NCBI GenBank assembly: GCA_947451035.1
Contig: CANFXR010000011.1
Coordinates: 1-45,559, forward strand
Length of the DNA: 45,559 nt
Source of the DNA: Burkholderiales bacterium
Lineage (GTDB): Bacteria > Pseudomonadota > Gammaproteobacteria > Burkholderiales > Burkholderiaceae_C
Direction of reading: 5' to 3'
Both the position numbers and the translations under genes were made by a program. Shown here one piece after another: positions 445-17,021 of the stretch. The first letter of the stretch is position 1, and every line of letters begins with the position of its first letter. Below the pieces are notes generated by a model that was not told where the DNA came from, made no database searches, and saw only the letters and a program-made list of their open reading frames with translations.

Positions 445-1362
445 TCAGACCGGAAACACACCCGTCGACAAGTAGCGATCACCACGGTCGCACACGATGA
501 ACACGATGGTCGCGTTGTCGACCCTGCGCGCCAGCTCCAGCGCCACCCAGCATGCACCGGCGGCCGAAATGCCCGCGAAGATGCCTTCGTCGCGCGCCAG
601 CCGCCGCGCCATTTCCTCGGCATCGACCTGACTCACCTGCACGATCTCGTCGACATGGGTCGGGTCGTAGATCTTGGGCAGGTAGGCCTCGGGCCATTTG
701 CGTATGCCCGGGATGCGCGAGCCCTCGCTGGGCTGCGCGCCGATGATGCGCACCGCCGGGTTCATTTCCTTCAGATGGCGCGACACGCCGGTGATGGTGC
801 CGGTGGTGCCCATGGCGCTCACGAAGTGCGTGACCTGGCCGGCCGTGTCGCGCCAGATCTCGGGGCCGGTGGTCTCGTAGTGAACGCGCGGGTTGTCGGC
901 GTTGGCAAACTGGTCGAGCACCAGCCCCTTGCCATCGCGTTGCAACTGATCGGCGAGATCGCGTGCGTGTTCCATGCCGCCCGAGCGCGGTGTGAGCATC
1001 AGCTCGGCACCGAAGGCGCGCATCGTTTGCGCGCGCTCGATGGACAGGTCCTCCGGCATGATCAGCAGCATGCGGTAGCCGCGTATGGCCGCCGCCATGG
1101 CCAGCGCGATGCCGGTGTTGCCCGAGGTGGCTTCGATGAGCGTGTCGCCCGGCTTGATCTGGCCGCGCTCTTCGGCGCGCCGGATCATGCTGATGGCCGC
1201 GCGGTCTTTCACCGAGCCGGCGGGGTTGTTGCCCTCGAGCTTGCCCAGGATCACGTTGCCGCGGCGCTGGCCGTCAACGCCGGGCAAGCGGGCCAGCCGC
1301 ACCAGCGGCGTGTGGCCGATCAGGTCTTCGAGCGAGGAATAAACGGGCTGCTTCTTGGCCAT
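445..1362 (-). CDS. cysM: Cysteine synthase B (O-acetylserine sulfhydrylase)
   Basis: A 305-residue fold-type II PLP enzyme making cysteine from O-acetylserine and sulfide or thiosulfate. Visible are NNPAGSVKDR with the PLP lysine at K52, the phosphate/substrate loop EATSGNTG near residues 77-84, and the SAMGTTGTITG glycine loop. The CysM style (EGNNPAGSVKDR, then SEGSRIPGIRKW) fits the B isozyme better than CysK. The ORF extends 23 codons upstream to 1431, but the ATG at 1360-1362 gives the usual N-terminus MAKKQPVYSSLEDLIGHTPL and is preferred. The tusA-like gene follows on the same strand. Confidence 0.95.
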   Translation of the reverse strand: MAKKQPVYSSLEDLIGHTPLVRLARLPGVDGQRRGNVILGKLEGNNPAGSVKDRAAISMIRRAEERGQIKPGDTLIEATSGNTGIALAMAAAIRGYRMLLIMPEDLSIERAQTMRAFGAELMLTPRSGGMEHARDLADQLQRDGKGLVLDQFANADNPRVHYETTGPEIWRDTAGQVTHFVSAMGTTGTITGVSRHLKEMNPAVRIIGAQPSEGSRIPGIRKWPEAYLPKIYDPTHVDEIVQVSQVDAEEMARRLARDEGIFAGISAAGACWVALELARRVDNATIVFIVCDRGDRYLSTGVFPV

Positions 1363-1654
1363 GCGAACTCGCAACAGGTCAGCGTGTGGTTTGCCCCTGA
1401 CAGTGCGGCATGGCACCGCATCGGCAAACACTGAAAAACGTTCGGGTGGTACGGCGGATCGGAATCCGGTGGACCTGCGGGGTGGTTTTTGCCGGCGCCA
1501 TGAGCGCCCGCAGCACGACGGGTTGGACGTGCGCGGACGATTATGTCCGCACCAACAGACCGCCCTCGTCGCCTGTCGGCAGGGGTGCGAACGGCTTGCT
1601 CGGCCGGCCCGGACGGTGCGTCATGGCGGGCGAGTTTTCGCTCCCGCGAAATGT
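1363..1654. other. Intergenic region between sigma-like gene and cysM
   Basis: About 290 bases without a convincing gene; short ORFs here have no recognisable product. It must hold the 3' end of the sigma-like transcript and probably the cysM promoter (minus strand). The only clear structure is a small hairpin at 1533-1550. No good -35/-10 pair for cysM stands out by eye. Confidence 0.5.
1533..1550. repeat. Small perfect hairpin GCGGAC-GATTAT-GTCCGC
   Basis: Six-base arms at 1533-1538 and 1545-1550 around the AT-rich loop GATTAT; a GT/AC pair flanks it outside a two-base bulge. It lies 105 bases beyond the stop of the sigma-like gene and about 170 bases before the cysM start. There is no T-run on either side, so it is a poor intrinsic terminator. 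It could be an operator for a dimeric regulator, or chance. Confidence 0.4.
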
Positions 1655-2164
1655 CTAGACGAATTCAGCGGCAATCTCGGCGATGGCGCTGCGGTGCAGG
1701 GAAACCGTCTCCGGACGAATCCCCAGTTGCTCTGCGATATCGACGCCGGTTTGCCCGTCGAGCATGCGCTCGAGGACGGCACACCGCGTGTGTCGGCCTT
1801 CGGCCCTGCGGCACGACGCATGGATGCACGCCAGAACCCGATCCGCGAATTCGGAGCATTGGGCCCGGCCGCAGGCGTCGTCCGGGCCGTGCCGATCGAA
1901 GTCGTCCAGGTCATCAACAGAGCCCGCCATGATCTGACCCGCCTTGCCGCGCTGCGGCCACATCGTGCGAGCCCAGTCCAGCATGGCCCACCTGGCGGTC
2001 TGCGCCGCCGAGCGTCTGGCATGGTCCGGCTCCAGCCGGGCCATGGCATCGCGGCGCAACCACACGGCGATGCGCCCTTCTTGCCAGAGGTCGTCGAAGT
2101 GGGCCTGAGGGATTTGTCGGGCCAGCTCCCGCGCCACGCTGCGGCTGACGGCGTCGAACATCAT
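1655..2164 (-). CDS. Small sigma-70-like RNA polymerase factor
   Basis: A 169-residue protein. Residues about 20-75 (FDDLWQEGRIAVWLRR, then ARWAMLDWARTM) look like sigma-70 region 2, the core-binding and -10-recognition helices. After an acidic linker (about 80-105), residues about 126-165 (CAVLERMLDGQTGVDIAEQLGIRPETVSLHRSAIAEI) form a region 4-type helix-turn-helix. Region 3 is missing, as in ECF or phage-type sigma factors. The ORF stays open far upstream, but the ATG at 2162-2164 overlaps the stop of the preceding lipoprotein gene as ATGA and has no Shine-Dalgarno of its own, so translational coupling is likely. No anti-sigma gene is adjacent. The family call is by eye; a generic HTH protein is the alternative. 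Confidence 0.65.
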   Translation of the reverse strand: MMFDAVSRSVARELARQIPQAHFDDLWQEGRIAVWLRRDAMARLEPDHARRSAAQTARWAMLDWARTMWPQRGKAGQIMAGSVDDLDDFDRHGPDDACGRAQCSEFADRVLACIHASCRRAEGRHTRCAVLERMLDGQTGVDIAEQLGIRPETVSLHRSAIAEIAAEFV

Positions 2165-2388
2165 TCGCGGGCCAGTTCGACCGCGGGGTTGCAGATGAGG
2201 AACTGACCCAGTTTGTGACACGTCATCAACTCGGGAGGACCTAGCGGTGAGCCGGGCGCCATCTGCGGTGCCGGCGGCGTGCCACACCCGGCCAGCACCA
2301 TCGGCACCAGCACCAGCACCCCGCAAAGCGCGTCGCCCCTGACCCTGCCGCCGAAATCCAGCCGCGTGCCGGGTGGGTTGGGTGCCAT
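2161..2388 (-). CDS. Small putative lipoprotein, first gene of sigma-like operon
   Basis: A 75-residue protein starting at ATG 2386-2388, just after a perfect AGGAGG (2393-2398, minus strand), which decides the reading frame. Residues 20-34 form a hydrophobic stretch ending in a lipobox (VLAGC, lipidated Cys35). The predicted mature part is about 41 residues, Pro-rich at first, with two further cysteines (C57 and C66) nine residues apart that could form a disulfide in the periplasm. The n-region before the hydrophobic core is long, about 19 residues. Its stop overlaps the sigma-like start by 4 bases. I do not recognise the family; an envelope-linked regulatory role is inferred from operon context alone. 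Confidence 0.6.
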   Translation of the reverse strand: MAPNPPGTRLDFGGRVRGDALCGVLVLVPMVLAGCGTPPAPQMAPGSPLGPPELMTCHKLGQFLICNPAVELARE

Positions 2389-2663
2389 GAGTCCTCCTGC
2401 ATCTGCGCAGCGAGACTTCGTGTGCCCACCCGCTTTTCGAGCCTAGCGATGAGCAGGTTTTCAGCGCTGATTCCACTCACGATCGCGGCGGCAACGCGTC
2501 GGATTTCAGCGCACGGCTCGTCCTGACGCGGACAGACGCACGCGGCGCGGCCGTGGTGGGCGCACCGTTCAGCGAGCGGTTTATTCGTGGGGGTTGAGCG
2601 ATGAGTTGCCGGGCGGGAACGCCGGGCAATCAGGGAGAAAAGAGTCGCGTGAGGGGTTGGATC
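2389..2663. other. Intergenic region between tRNA-Leu and the lipoprotein gene
   Basis: About 275 bases with no convincing gene. A minus-strand frame stays open from 2693 to 2241, but it runs through the tRNA and through the lipoprotein gene in another frame and has no supported start. The region should hold the promoter of the lipoprotein/sigma pair; I cannot name one with confidence. Confidence 0.45.
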
Positions 2664-2748
2664 TGGTGCCTCGGGTCGGAATCGAACCGACACTCCTTGC
2701 GGAACGGGATTTTGAGTCCCGCGCGTCTACCAATTCCGCCACCGAGGC
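2664..2748 (-). tRNA. tRNA-Leu (anticodon CAA)
   Basis: On the minus strand the sequence begins GCCTCGG and ends CCGAGGC-A-CCA, giving a perfect 7-bp acceptor stem with the CCA encoded. The anticodon arm is GGGA-CTCAAAA-TCCC, placing CAA in the anticodon. A variable arm (TTCCGCAAGGAG) makes it a class II tRNA of 85 bases, as expected for Leu. The T arm GTCGG-TTCGATT-CCGAC is intact. Confidence 0.96.
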
Positions 2749-2824: not shown

Positions 2825-3421
2825 ATGCCCCCGATGCCACCCGTCACCCGAGCGCTGTTGCTGATCAACGTCGCCGCCTATTGCCTCGGGATCTTCATGG
2901 AGCCGTGGTTCACCCGGCTGCTCGGGCTGTGGCCACTGGGTTACGGGTTCTTGCCATGGCAGGTGGGCACCTACGCTTTCCTGCATGGCAGCGTGGGTCA
3001 CCTGTTTTTCAACATGCTCGGGCTGTGGATGTTCGGCTCCGAACTGGAGCGGCTGTGGGGACGCCAGCGCTTCATTCAGTTCTATGCCGCCAGCGTGCTG
3101 AGTGCTGCCGCCGCGCAATTGCTGGTGACCTGGCTGCTGGGATCGATGTACCCGACCGTGGGGGCTTCGGGTGGCCTGTTCGGTCTGCTGCTGGCGTATG
3201 GCATGACCTACCCCAACCGCACCATCGTGCCGCTGATCCCGCCGATCCCGATGAAGGCCAAGGTCTTCGTGGCGATCTACGGCGGGCTCGAGCTGCTGAT
3301 GGGAGTGACCGGCTCGGCCTCGGGCGTGGCTCACTTCGCGCACCTGGGCGGCATGCTGGGTGGCTTCCTGATGCTGCGCTACTGGCGCGGGCAGTCGCCG
3401 TTTTCGGGCCGTCGGCGCTGA
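2825..3421 (+). CDS. Rhomboid-family intramembrane serine protease
   Basis: A 198-residue polytopic membrane protein. The catalytic pair is visible: Ser115 in GASGG and His173 in the HLGGMLGG segment of the last transmembrane helix. The conserved HGSVGHLFFN motif supplies H59 and N63 of the oxyanion region. Six hydrophobic segments match a minimal six-helix bacterial rhomboid without the cytosolic domain of E. coli GlpG. These enzymes cleave transmembrane segments of other inner-membrane proteins. The start ATG at 2825 is 77 bases past the tRNA. Substrates cannot be inferred. It converges with the epimerase-like gene, ending 19 bases from it. Confidence 0.93.
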   Translation: MPPMPPVTRALLLINVAAYCLGIFMEPWFTRLLGLWPLGYGFLPWQVGTYAFLHGSVGHLFFNMLGLWMFGSELERLWGRQRFIQFYAASVLSAAAAQLLVTWLLGSMYPTVGASGGLFGLLLAYGMTYPNRTIVPLIPPIPMKAKVFVAIYGGLELLMGVTGSASGVAHFAHLGGMLGGFLMLRYWRGQSPFSGRRR

Positions 3422-3440
3422 CCGCCCACGGCGCGGCGGC

Positions 3441-4328
3441 TCACAGACCGTCGCGCACCGTCGGGTAGCGCAGCCGCAAGCGCAACTCGCGCTTGAGCCG
3501 GCGGTTGTCGAGCCTGCGTGATTCGCTCATGAAGCTCATCAGCATCGGCGACAGCCGCTCGGCAGCCTCGCTGCGCGTGATGCGCGGCGGGCGCGGCAGC
3601 CCGCACACGTCGGCGGCCAGATCGAAGTAGTCGCCCATCTTCAGATCGGTGTCGTCACTCGCGTGCACCACGCGCTGCGGCAGCGCGCGGGTGAGTGCGG
3701 CGACGCACGCCCGCGCCAGATCGTCGGCATGGATGTGGTTGGTGTGCACGTCGTCTTCGGTGCGCAGCACCGCGGTGCCGCGCAGCAAGCGCTCACGCGG
3801 GTGGCCGCCCTCGCGGTCGGTGGCGTAGATGCCGGGAATGCGCAAAATCGCCACGCGCACGCCGTGGGCGCGGCCGTACCAGCGCAGCTGCGCCTCGGCA
3901 TCGACACGCCGGCGCGCGCGGTCGGTGGTCGGGTGGACGGCGCGGGTCTCGTCGAATCGGTCACCGCCGCAGTCGCCATAAACGCCGCTGGTGCTGGCGT
4001 AGACGATGCGCCGCACGCGGCCGCGCAGCGCCAGCGCGTTGAGCAGATGGCGGGTGCGCGGGTCGGTGGCGCCTTGCAGCGGCGGCGGCGCCAGATGCAG
4101 CACCGCATCGGCCAGACCGGCCAGCCGCGCCAGCGTGGCCGGCTCATCCAGATTGCCCGGCAGCGGCACCGCACCGGCCGCGCGCAAGGCGGCCGCACGC
4201 TGCGGGCTGGAGGTCAGCGCGAGCAGCCGGTAGCGACCGCGCAGCAGCCGCAGCACGCGCATGCCGACGTCGCCACAACCGACGATCAGCAAGGTGGGGC
4301 GTTGAAAGACCGAAGGCAACGTGGACAT
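3441..4328 (-). CDS. NAD(P)-dependent epimerase/dehydratase-like SDR protein
   Basis: About 295 residues with an N-terminal Rossmann motif (LLIVGCGDVGMRVLRLL), an ASTSGVYGDCGG segment carrying the SDR Ser/Tyr region, and a later RIPGIYATDREG segment. These resemble the atypical extended SDRs annotated as YeeZ-like. The usual YxxxK is not plain (a VYGDCGG context instead), so catalysis and substrate are uncertain. An in-frame TTG lies six bases upstream of the chosen ATG; neither has a clear ribosome binding site. The gene is divergent from the reductase gene at 4388, so the 59 bases between them must hold both promoters. Confidence 0.8.
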   Translation of the reverse strand: MSTLPSVFQRPTLLIVGCGDVGMRVLRLLRGRYRLLALTSSPQRAAALRAAGAVPLPGNLDEPATLARLAGLADAVLHLAPPPLQGATDPRTRHLLNALALRGRVRRIVYASTSGVYGDCGGDRFDETRAVHPTTDRARRRVDAEAQLRWYGRAHGVRVAILRIPGIYATDREGGHPRERLLRGTAVLRTEDDVHTNHIHADDLARACVAALTRALPQRVVHASDDTDLKMGDYFDLAADVCGLPRPPRITRSEAAERLSPMLMSFMSESRRLDNRRLKRELRLRLRYPTVRDGL

Positions 4329-4387
4329 GGGCAAGGCAAGCGGGTGTGCGGGGCAAAATCCCGGTTCAGTTTACGAGCCCGACCACC

Positions 4388-5431
4388 ATGAGCATGACCG
4401 TCACGCTGCAACCCAGCGGCCGCAGTTTCCCCGTCCAGCGCGACGAGCCCGTCCTCGCCGCCGCACTGCGAGCCGGCGTGGGCCTGCCCTACGGCTGCAA
4501 GGACGGCGCGTGCGGCTCGTGCAAGTGCCGGCTCATCGAAGGTCGGGTCATCCACGGCGCACACCAGCTCAAGGCCTTGAGCGTCGAGGAAGAAGAACAG
4601 GGCTACGTGCTGACGTGCTGCGCCGCACCGCAGACCGACCTGGTGCTCGAAGCGCGCACCGTGGCCGGCGTGGGCGAGCTGCCGGTGCGCCGCATGCCCG
4701 CGCGCTTGAGCCGGATTGAAAAGCCCGCGGTGGATGTCGCCATCGTCACCTTGCAACTGCCGGCCAGCGACGCCCTGCGCTACCTCGCCGGCCAGTACAT
4801 CGACATCTTGCTGCCCGACGGCTCCCGCCGCAGCTACTCGATGGCCAACGCGCCCCACACCCAGGGCGACAAGCCGTGGATCGAGCTGCACATCCGCCAC
4901 CTGAGCGGCGGCCTGTTCAGCGACAAGGTCTTTGGCTCGATGAAGGAAAAGGACATCGTGCGACTCGAAGGCCCGTTCGGCAGCTTCTTCCTGCGCGAAG
5001 ACTCGCCCAAGCCCATCGTGCTGCTGGCCTCGGGCACTGGCTTCGCGCCCATCAAGGCGCTGCTCGAGCACCTGCAAACCCAGCCAGCCAGCCGCCCCGT
5101 GGTGCTGTACTGGGGCTGCCGCGCCCGCGCCGATCTGTACCTGCACGACTGGGCCGTGCAAGCCGCTGCGCAGATGCCGCAGCTGACCTATGTGCCGGTG
5201 CTCTCGGACCCGCTGGCCTCAGACGGCTGGAGCGGACGCACCGGCCTGGTCCATCAGGCAGTGCTGCAGGACCTGCCCGATCTGAGCGGCCACCAGGTCT
5301 ATGCCTGCGGCAACCCCTTGATGGTCGAAGCCGCCCAGCGCGACCTGATCGGCCAAGCTGGCCTGCCCGAAGACGAGTTCTTTGCCGACGCGTTCTACAG
5401 CGCGGCGCAGTCAGGCAACCCCGGCGCCTGA
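4388..5431 (+). CDS. 2Fe-2S ferredoxin/FAD-NAD(P)H reductase fusion (CDP-6-deoxy-glucoseen reductase-like)
   Basis: A 347-residue fusion. Residues 1-90 form a plant-type 2Fe-2S ferredoxin with YGCKDGACGSCKC (Cys37, 42, 45) and the fourth ligand in LTCCA (77/78). The rest is a ferredoxin-NADP reductase module with the FAD motif RSYSMAN, the NAD(P) loop LLASGTGFAPIKALLE and the C-terminal FFADAFYSA. It passes electrons from NAD(P)H through FAD to the iron-sulfur centre. This type is often annotated as CDP-6-deoxy-delta-3,4-glucoseen reductase (AscD), but no dideoxysugar genes are near, so the partner is unknown. ATG 4388 is preferred over an in-frame upstream start at 4346. Confidence 0.85.
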   Translation: MSMTVTLQPSGRSFPVQRDEPVLAAALRAGVGLPYGCKDGACGSCKCRLIEGRVIHGAHQLKALSVEEEEQGYVLTCCAAPQTDLVLEARTVAGVGELPVRRMPARLSRIEKPAVDVAIVTLQLPASDALRYLAGQYIDILLPDGSRRSYSMANAPHTQGDKPWIELHIRHLSGGLFSDKVFGSMKEKDIVRLEGPFGSFFLREDSPKPIVLLASGTGFAPIKALLEHLQTQPASRPVVLYWGCRARADLYLHDWAVQAAAQMPQLTYVPVLSDPLASDGWSGRTGLVHQAVLQDLPDLSGHQVYACGNPLMVEAAQRDLIGQAGLPEDEFFADAFYSAAQSGNPGA

Positions 5432-15283: not shown

Positions 15284-15517
15284 ATGGCACGCGTCTGTCA
15301 AGTCACGGGCAAGCGCCCGATGTCGGGAAACAATGTTTCCCACGCCAACAACAAGACCAAGCGGCGTTTTCTGCCGAACCTGCAGTACCGCAGGTTCTGG
15401 CTCGAAACCGAGAACCGCTGGGTGCGGCTGCGCATCTCGAATGCGGCGCTGCGTTTGATCGACAAGGTGGGCATTGAAAAGGTCGTCGCCGACCTTCGTG
15501 CCCGCGGCGAAATCTGA
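15284..15517 (+). CDS. rpmB: 50S ribosomal protein L28
   Basis: 77 residues; [33 protein letters not shown] is the standard L28 N-terminus. Only one cysteine remains, so this is the zinc-free form. ATG 15284 has an AGGAG nine bases upstream. rpmG follows 13 bases later, and the pair ends at a strong terminator, so they form a short operon. Confidence 0.98.
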
Positions 15518-15530
15518 TTAGGAGCGCATC

Positions 15531-15698
15531 ATGGCAAAAGGTGGACGCGAAAAAATCAAGCTGGAATCGTCAGCTGGTACCGGTCATTTCTACACGACCG
15601 ACAAGAACAAGAAGACGACCCCAGAGAAGCTCGAAATCATGAAGTTCGATCCGAAGGTTCGAAAGCATGTGATGTACAAGGAAACGAAGCTGCGTTAA
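15531..15698 (+). CDS. rpmG: 50S ribosomal protein L33
   Basis: A 55-residue protein starting at ATG 15531 behind AGGAG and ending with TAA at 15696-15698. It reads [18 protein letters not shown] at the start, then [10 protein letters not shown] and ends YKETKLR, as in proteobacterial L33. It has no cysteines, so it is the zinc-independent form. It is second in the rpmB-rpmG operon, 13 bases after rpmB. Confidence 0.97.
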
Positions 15699-15710
15699 AT
15701 CAGCCCACTC

Positions 15711-15756
15711 CAACAAAAAACCCGCTCGGCATTGCTGCCCAGCGGGTTTTTTGTTG
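15711..15756. terminator. Bidirectional intrinsic terminator between rpmG and the desaturase gene
   Basis: Perfect 16-base arms (15711-15726 and 15741-15756). The GC core CCCGCT/AGCGGG is flanked by A-run and T-run on either side, so each strand ends in a T-tract. It sits 12 bases after the rpmG stop and can stop transcripts from both convergent genes. Confidence 0.93.
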
Positions 15757-15762
15757 GGCGCC

Positions 15763-15781
15763 TGGCACCCATCGGGTGCCA
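15763..15781. terminator. Second hairpin on the desaturase side
   Basis: TGGCACCC-ATC-GGGTGCCA, eight-base arms with a three-base loop, 17 bases past the desaturase stop. It has no T-run of its own. It may stabilise the 3' end of the desaturase transcript ahead of the main terminator. Confidence 0.5.
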
Positions 15782-15797
15782 GATCGGTACCGGGGTT

Positions 15798-17021
15798 TCA
15801 GGCCTGTGAGGCGCGCAGACGGATCGCGAACGACTGCAGTTCGGCGATGCCGCTTTCCTCGGCCTTGCGGCACCAGACCTGCAAGTCCGTCACCAGCTGG
15901 TCGGCAGACACATTGGTGCGTGTCCACAACGAGCGCAGCTCCTCGCGCATGACCACCAGCTTGGCCAGCACTGCGTGCTGATTGCACACCGACTCCATGC
16001 GCTCTTTCACCGCATGGGGGATCTTGTCCGCATCGCGGTGCAACCAGCGCTGTGCCAGGTGCATGTCCTTCCAGCGCGCGGTGTTCTGGGCACCTTCGGC
16101 CTTGAGCCGAGCCAGTTCGCTTCGGCACTCCTCGCGCAGATGCTTGGCGTACTTGGCCATGACCTCGTAGCGGTGCGCGATGAGCGCCTCCAGAGTCTTC
16201 GAGTCAGCGACCGGCTTGATGTCGCCCAGCCTCAGCACCGGAGCGGTCTTGCGAACGCGTGCCAAGCCAAGGATTTCGAGCGTGCGGATGTAGGCCCAGC
16301 CGAGATCGAACTCGTAGGGCTTGATCGACAACTTGGCCGACGTCGGATAGGTGTGGTGGTTGTTATGCAACTCCTCGCCGCCGATGATGATGCCCCACGG
16401 AGAAATGTTCGTCGACGCATCAGGCGCCTCGAAATTGCGGTACCCCCACCAGTGGCCCAGGCCATTGATGATGCCCGCAGCAGTCACCGGAATCCACGCC
16501 ATCTGAACCGCCCACACGGACAGGCCGGCAGCACCAAACAGCGCCAGATTGATCGCCAGCATCAGGCCGACGCCCAGCCAGTTGTTGTGGCCGTAGAAGT
16601 GACGCTCCATCCAGTCATCGGGCGTTCCGTGACCGTATTTCTGCAGCGTCTCCAGGTTCTTGGACTCGGCGCGATACAACTCGGCGCCTTGCAGCAGCAA
16701 CTTCCTGATGCCGTAGATCTGCGGGCTGTGCGGGTCGTCGACCGTCTCGCACTTGGCGTGGTGCTTGCGGTGGATCGCCACCCACTCCTTGGTCACCTGG
16801 CCGGTGGCAAGCCACAGCCACAGACGAAAGAAGTGCGAAGGAATCGCGTGCAGATCCACCGAGCGGTGCGCCTGCGAGCGGTGCAAGAAGATGGTGACCG
16901 AGGCGATCGTGAAGTGCGTCGTCACCAGTGTGTAGATCACGATCTGCCACCAGGTGGCATCCACAAGCCCATGGGCCAGCCAGTTCAACAGGCCGTCCGC
17001 CAACGTCGTCAATATATTCAT
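15798..17021 (-). CDS. Membrane fatty acid desaturase (acyl-CoA/acyl-lipid delta-9 type)
   Basis: 407 residues. The three di-iron histidine boxes are plain: HRSQAH (47-52), HRKHH (84-88) and HNNHH (219-223), plus GHWWGYRNF. Hydrophobic segments at about 26-46, 64-74 and 150-185 fit an inner-membrane enzyme adding a double bond to acyl chains for membrane fluidity. Residues about 275-407 form a long, charged, helical tail beyond the catalytic domain, so the protein is longer than a minimal desaturase of ~300 residues. ATG 17019-17021 (MNILTTLADG) is preferred over the upstream 17048. A sigma70-like promoter lies just upstream. Confidence 0.92.
   Translation of the reverse strand: MNILTTLADGLLNWLAHGLVDATWWQIVIYTLVTTHFTIASVTIFLHRSQAHRSVDLHAIPSHFFRLWLWLATGQVTKEWVAIHRKHHAKCETVDDPHSPQIYGIRKLLLQGAELYRAESKNLETLQKYGHGTPDDWMERHFYGHNNWLGVGLMLAINLALFGAAGLSVWAVQMAWIPVTAAGIINGLGHWWGYRNFEAPDASTNISPWGIIIGGEELHNNHHTYPTSAKLSIKPYEFDLGWAYIRTLEILGLARVRKTAPVLRLGDIKPVADSKTLEALIAHRYEVMAKYAKHLREECRSELARLKAEGAQNTARWKDMHLAQRWLHRDADKIPHAVKERMESVCNQHAVLAKLVVMREELRSLWTRTNVSADQLVTDLQVWCRKAEESGIAELQSFAIRLRASQA

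Follow-up and report, generated by a model that had tools for sequence, protein, structure and literature searches.

An apparent lipoprotein and ECF-like sigma operon on a lineage-specific insertion at tRNA-Leu(CAA) of a Burkholderiales bacterium

Two overlapping genes on the minus strand of a Burkholderiales contig raise the question of whether they work as one unit. The initial annotation paired a tiny lipoprotein with a small sigma factor, and proposed that the two could act together as an envelope sensor with its sigma factor. Here 'window' refers to the whole stretch of DNA analysed, 45,559 nucleotides long, in which all positions are counted. Both open reading frames (ORFs), at 2161–2388 and 1655–2164 of the minus strand, and their ATGA overlap are present in the sequence as annotated. 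The features of the locus are as follows.

445–1371, minus strand: cysM-like gene, a conserved flanking neighbour
1447–1466: att-like copy of the tRNA-Leu 3′ end at the distal end of the insertion, 16/20 identical
1467–2663: lineage-specific insertion between the repeats, absent from the loci of relatives
1655–2164, minus strand: predicted 169-residue divergent ECF-like sigma-70/helix-turn-helix (HTH) protein, ATG at 2164 (TIGR02937, E = 2.8e-6; GerE, E = 5.2e-7)
2161–2388, minus strand: 75-residue lipoprotein ORF, lipobox VLAGC, Cys at 22, 35, 57 and 66
2393–2398, minus strand: ribosome-binding site AGGAGG, 4 nt 5′ of the lipoprotein ATG at 2388
2664–2683: tRNA-Leu 3′ end, the proximal att-like repeat
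2664–2748, minus strand: tRNA-Leu (CAA), the apparent integration target (ARAGORN; Rfam RF00005)

Insertion at the 3′ end of tRNA-Leu(CAA)

The context of the pair was missed in the initial annotation. The two genes lie downstream of tRNA-Leu(CAA) and occupy a lineage-specific insertion of 1,217 bp at the 3′ end of the tRNA gene. In the same genus, the order is cysM, about 75 bp, tRNA-Leu and a rhomboid gene, where cysM and rhomboid are the names that we presume from the sequence. When 14 same-genus genomes were searched, 13 gave the locus, and the insertion site was empty in all 13, with 3–81 bp between cysM and tRNA-Leu as compared with 1,293 bp in the window. Among these 13 are the three nearest relatives, whose flanking DNA is 93–94% identical. 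From a named collection, 80 loci were fetched via the rhomboid protein; 21 of them hold both cysM and tRNA-Leu, and every one lacks the insertion, with a gap of 3–144 bp. Because one of them, from Rhizobacter sp. D1_Bin_37 (L068), and a same-genus locus (L012) come from one contig, 20 of the 21 are new, and the genus of the window includes the genome deposited under that name.

Incidentally, of the 21 named-collection loci, 19 (within L066–L127) have tRNA-Leu(CAA) on the strand opposite to cysM; in the window, in the 13 same-genus loci, in L065 and in L068, it is on the cysM strand. The tRNA gene thus seems to have been flipped in the lineage of the window.

The extra DNA begins at the expected start of the tRNA 3′ end. 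The sequence TGGTACGGCGGATCGGAATC at 1447–1466 and the sequence TGGTGCCTCGGGTCGGAATC at 2664–2683 are in direct orientation and identical at 16 of 20 positions, with four mismatches. The start-to-start spacing of these repeats (2664 − 1447) equals the gap difference to the three nearest relatives (1293 − 76), both being 1,217. At one fixed place, at least 16 of 20 matches are expected by chance with a probability of about 1.4e-6. A search of both strands of the 45.5-kb window for sites within five mismatches of the tRNA end gave, besides the tRNA itself, the left repeat alone. A joint pattern, built from the two repeat copies themselves, is found at these two places only in the 2.95-Mb genome, and two of 15 other genomes have one copy, at tRNA-Leu. 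Because 11–14 of about 75 bases of the adjacent intergenic DNA differ from the three nearest relatives, four changes among 20 in the displaced copy could be ordinary drift and need no special cause. We infer that the repeats are att sites of the attL/attR type, and the anatomy of the insertion, as judged from sequence, is that of site-specific integration at a tRNA gene.

An integron cassette was also considered and rejected, as the junction lies at TGGT of the tRNA end and not at the integron core site, GTTRRRY. In the Rfam scan, the tRNA alone reached the gathering score. A consensus scan gave no promoter, and one terminator-like site was found on the plus strand, where 1.0 would be expected. 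The insertion has no second copy in its own genome, the best other match being 34 bp long (E = 0.00165). As the genome is a draft (164 contigs, 87.85% complete), misassembly at the tRNA is possible, although the two flanks are syntenic.

The lipoprotein and its reading frame

The 75-residue frame carries what had been ascribed to it. Its lipobox is VLAGC with Cys35, AGGAGG stands 4 nt before the ATG, and the two cysteines nine residues apart are Cys57 and Cys66, the remaining one being Cys22. When the 1.2-kb stretch was shuffled with dinucleotides preserved, none of 3,000 shuffles gave an ORF of at least 60 residues that had a Shine–Dalgarno sequence and in which a hydrophobic run was followed by a strict lipobox; with the Shine–Dalgarno requirement dropped, six of 3,000 did. 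The codon-usage score of the frame is 0.033, against 0.34–0.51 in nine correctly framed neighbours (the training set was ten genes, one of them mis-framed).

With its hydrophobic stretch and lipobox, the ORF resembles bacterial lipoproteins of the signal-peptidase-II type, but it differs from them in being assigned to no family. Pfam gave zero families even at E = 10, and the best matches were weak, namely TagV (E = 0.53) and a PHROG Rz-like spanin (E = 0.33). At E ≤ 0.01, 20 of 299 family genomes matched the lipoprotein, its own genome counted, and the similarity in those viewed is confined to the signal and lipobox part. One family genome (G258) gave a match over residues 10–73 with two stops (E = 0.005). 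At another locus (L060), a lipoprotein ORF overlaps a LuxR regulator gene and has little in common with the 75-residue lipoprotein beyond the signal and lipobox part. Two phage records (E = 1, 85% covered) and four plasmid records (E of 3–4) were taken as chance, the three viewed records having unrelated neighbours. None was confirmed in viral contigs by a pattern scan, which reaches close relatives only.

The spanin match could point to a prophage fragment, in which the lipoprotein would serve as an outer spanin of the Rz1 type and the sigma-like protein as a phage regulator. In favour of this, the lipoprotein is small and contains proline, and one match to region 2 of the sigma-like protein (L017, described below) lies two genes after a Mu Gam-like gene. 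However, the spanin match is not significant, no gene for an Rz-like partner, the inner spanin, is seen, neither protein has a convincing relative in the phages and viral contigs searched, and a single weak PHROG match, of unknown function (phrog_29236, E = 0.045), came from the five other frames searched in the insertion. We consider a prophage fragment rather improbable. Most plausibly, the lipoprotein is a surface protein borne by the inserted element and co-expressed with the sigma-like protein.

The sigma-like protein and its relatives

The ATGA overlap joins the lipoprotein frame to the 169-residue frame on the same strand. The length of the latter is uninformative alone, because 386 of 500 shuffles gave an ORF as long or longer. 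Its GC content by codon position (0.72/0.52/0.81) fits coding, and the case for a real ORF rests on this and on the profile similarity below. Its codon-usage score is 0.156 against the same 0.34–0.51 in the neighbours, and one plus-strand frame across the gene is also open (score 0.069). Downstream in the same reading frame, another frame of 27 residues (MTHRPGRPSKP...) is found at 1541–1624 of the minus strand, and it has no family match, either alone or with the TAG read through.

The initial annotation assigned sigma-70 region 2-like and region 4-like segments to the 169-residue protein. In its size, in the order of region 2 followed by region 4, and in the coverage of residues 10–156 by the NCBIfam sigma70-ECF profile TIGR02937 (E = 2.8e-6, 27.1 bits), the protein resembles extracytoplasmic-function (ECF) sigma factors. 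It differs from them in falling under the curated cut-off (42.9 bits) and in having an HTH that is matched best as GerE. Residues 1–95 alone match TIGR02937 at E = 0.0075, and there is no match to Pfam Sigma70_r2. In the whole-protein Pfam search, GerE is over its cut-off (29.6 vs 23.5 bits) and Sigma70_r4_2 is under its own (17.3 vs 25.7 bits). With the C-terminal half alone, response-regulator models score best, TIGR02937 gives E = 0.063, and in Pfam GerE (E = 1.1e-7) is ahead of Sigma70_r4_2 (E = 0.00088). The segment DDLWQEGRIAVW sits at the position expected for region 2.2. The sigma-like nature assigned initially is supported by the TIGR02937 match.

These scores also bring in a second reading, in which the 169-residue protein is a LuxR/HTH-type DNA-binding regulator whose region-2-like N-terminus has decayed, leaving no working sigma factor. 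It would account for GerE passing where Sigma70_r4_2 fails, and for the faint signal of region 2 by itself. It accounts less well for the TIGR02937 match across residues 10–156 and for DDLWQEGRIAVW at the presumed region 2.2. Such a regulator is unlikely, though to be taken seriously. The sigma similarity is weak yet significant by profile, and we conclude that the protein is probably a divergent ECF-like sigma-70 protein, with sigma activity predicted. A single-sequence AlphaFold model was poor (mean pLDDT of 50.4), and Foldseek gave 32 matches at E ≤ 10 and none at E ≤ 0.001, the first and second ranks being BldN and AlgU complexes (E = 1.2 and 3.4). Both the model and its matches were excluded from the evidence.

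Relatives of the protein were sought in five overlapping sets of 100–399 genomes each, with its own genome in every set. In the relatives set, two of 100 genomes matched at E ≤ 0.001, being its own and one partial match (residues 103–163); in the class set, five of 369 did at the same threshold, its own and four partial. The order set gave three of 399 genomes (its own, L051 and L052), and the phylum set gave its own only among 388. At E ≤ 0.01, 36 of 399 genomes in the family set gave 39 rows, 21 of which are confined to residues 100–165; the widest of the remainder were G352 (residues 35–162, 23%) and G349 (residues 18–153, one stop). ORFs were read for four loci, L017, L028, L051 and L052. 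Two of these are partial alignments to sigma proteins, namely an ECF sigma of a same-order genome (L051, 29% identity over residues 25–156) and a sigma-like protein (L017, 42% identity over residues 21–74). In L028 and L052, the match seems to have arisen by chance, within frames of proteins that are unrelated.

The L017 protein has 273 residues and is encoded at 1429–2250 of its locus, two genes after the Mu Gam-like gene. It is also below the cut-off of TIGR02937 (E = 6.7e-10, 38.8 bits). Nothing in the phage collection matches it at E ≤ 0.1, and none was confirmed in viral contigs by a pattern scan that reaches close relatives only.

By tblastn, the 169-residue protein gave three plasmid records (E of 0.4–1) and five phage records (E of 0.1) over primase genes. 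Pattern scans of genome contigs and viral contigs, which reach close relatives only, confirmed none. Altogether, no convincing relative of either protein was found in the genome sets (five for the 169-residue protein, and one of 299 genomes for the lipoprotein), phages, plasmids or viral contigs.

As had been noted initially, no anti-sigma gene is recognisable beside the 169-residue ORF; the neighbours are the lipoprotein, tRNA-Leu and cysM, which is the next gene on the minus strand after the pair. In this, and in having no close relative in the searched sets, the protein again differs from ECF sigma factors. A review (PMC8103513) states that the neighbours of some ECFs are unknown, or that an anti-sigma factor is not obvious in their vicinity, so the absence here would be unusual, but not unheard of.

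Could the lipoprotein then detect an envelope signal and control the sigma factor in the place of the anti-sigma factor? The ATGA coupling, the lipobox, the sigma similarity and the lack of a recognisable adjacent anti-sigma gene are all consistent with such a sensing module, as are the ECFs just cited. On the other hand, a lipoprotein cleaved at the lipobox would place 41 residues outside the cytoplasm and leave none inside to touch the sigma factor, and the searched genomes hold no second example of the pair. Lack of joint conservation in relatives had been named initially as one of the results that would refute the idea, and this is the result obtained in the relatives searched. Without a second example in the searched sets, joint function is not comparable across genomes, and the envelope-sensor idea gains nothing from conservation. 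A functional sensor-plus-sigma module, for a pair whose site is empty at 13 of 13 same-genus loci and which has no convincing relatives, appears very improbable. The initial interpretation is, overall, partly supported.

Origin of the insertion

No integrase gene, relic of an integrase or transfer gene was recognised in the two ORFs or in the other frames of the insertion, five of which were searched with PHROGs and seven with Pfam. Besides the phrog_29236 match, the other frames gave DUF7385 (E = 0.09), and PADLOC gave a single weak match, CARF (E = 0.011). Against plasmids and phages, matches of the insertion DNA span 2–6% of the query at E ≥ 0.03, and no parent element was found in plasmids, phages or the genome itself. 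Elsewhere in the genome, the phage-integrase family PF00589 is matched four times. Two of these matches share one contig, one of them adjoining tRNA-Ser, and contigs C154 and C13 account for the other two. No match was tied to tRNA-Leu, the closer examination covering the two on the shared contig.

On this shared contig, C46 (L149), the two phage-integrase genes are found at 3395–4639 and 15336–16700, the tRNA beside one of them being tRNA-Ser(GGA). These genes look P4-like, and the arrangement suggests that the genome has another island, separate from the insertion.

Cis-mobilizable elements (CIMEs) are described (PMC5704250) as att-flanked site-specific insertions with no integration or transfer gene. 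The insertion resembles them in looking site-specific, in its att-like direct repeats and in having no recognised integration or transfer gene. It differs from them in being only 1.2 kb long, in its imperfect repeats, and in that no parent ICE or IME with the same att site was found. The insertion is best read as a remnant of the CIME kind or a mini-island, in either case with no integrase and with an orphan operon as its content.

We thus propose, as somewhat better than an even bet, that an element integrated at tRNA-Leu(CAA), its recombinase now gone, and left an operon of a lipoprotein and an ECF-like sigma protein. The 1,217-bp element would have entered the tRNA 3′ end in this lineage, most likely via a tyrosine recombinase that has since been lost, unless the element was carried in trans. 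Integration would have kept the tRNA intact, the displaced copy of its final 20 bp at the distal boundary having diverged since. The cargo would be one two-gene operon, encoding a small envelope lipoprotein and, by translational coupling, the divergent ECF-like sigma protein, composed of region 2 and an HTH of the LuxR/sigma-4 type. By binding core RNA polymerase, this protein would steer the enzyme to a small number of promoters: at first those of the parent element, and now perhaps its own only.

Several observations speak against this proposal. No integrase, parent or second copy was found in the searches described, and the two repeat copies are not identical. The sigma score lies under the cut-off, the best C-terminal match is GerE, the codon-usage scores are low, the structural model is poor, and the consensus scan gave no promoter. 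A bolder version is that of a 1.2-kb tRNA-targeted unit, moved in trans by the integrase of another element, whose lipoprotein–sigma cargo rewires envelope gene expression of the host; we regard it as a long shot.

The apparent operon is then not a conserved sensing module but cargo that is specific to this lineage and sits at a tRNA gene. With it comes an ECF-like regulator that is an orphan, having no close relative in the searched sets. If the sigma-like protein works, the insertion would exemplify a tiny unit, acquired horizontally, that carries a transcription specificity of its own.
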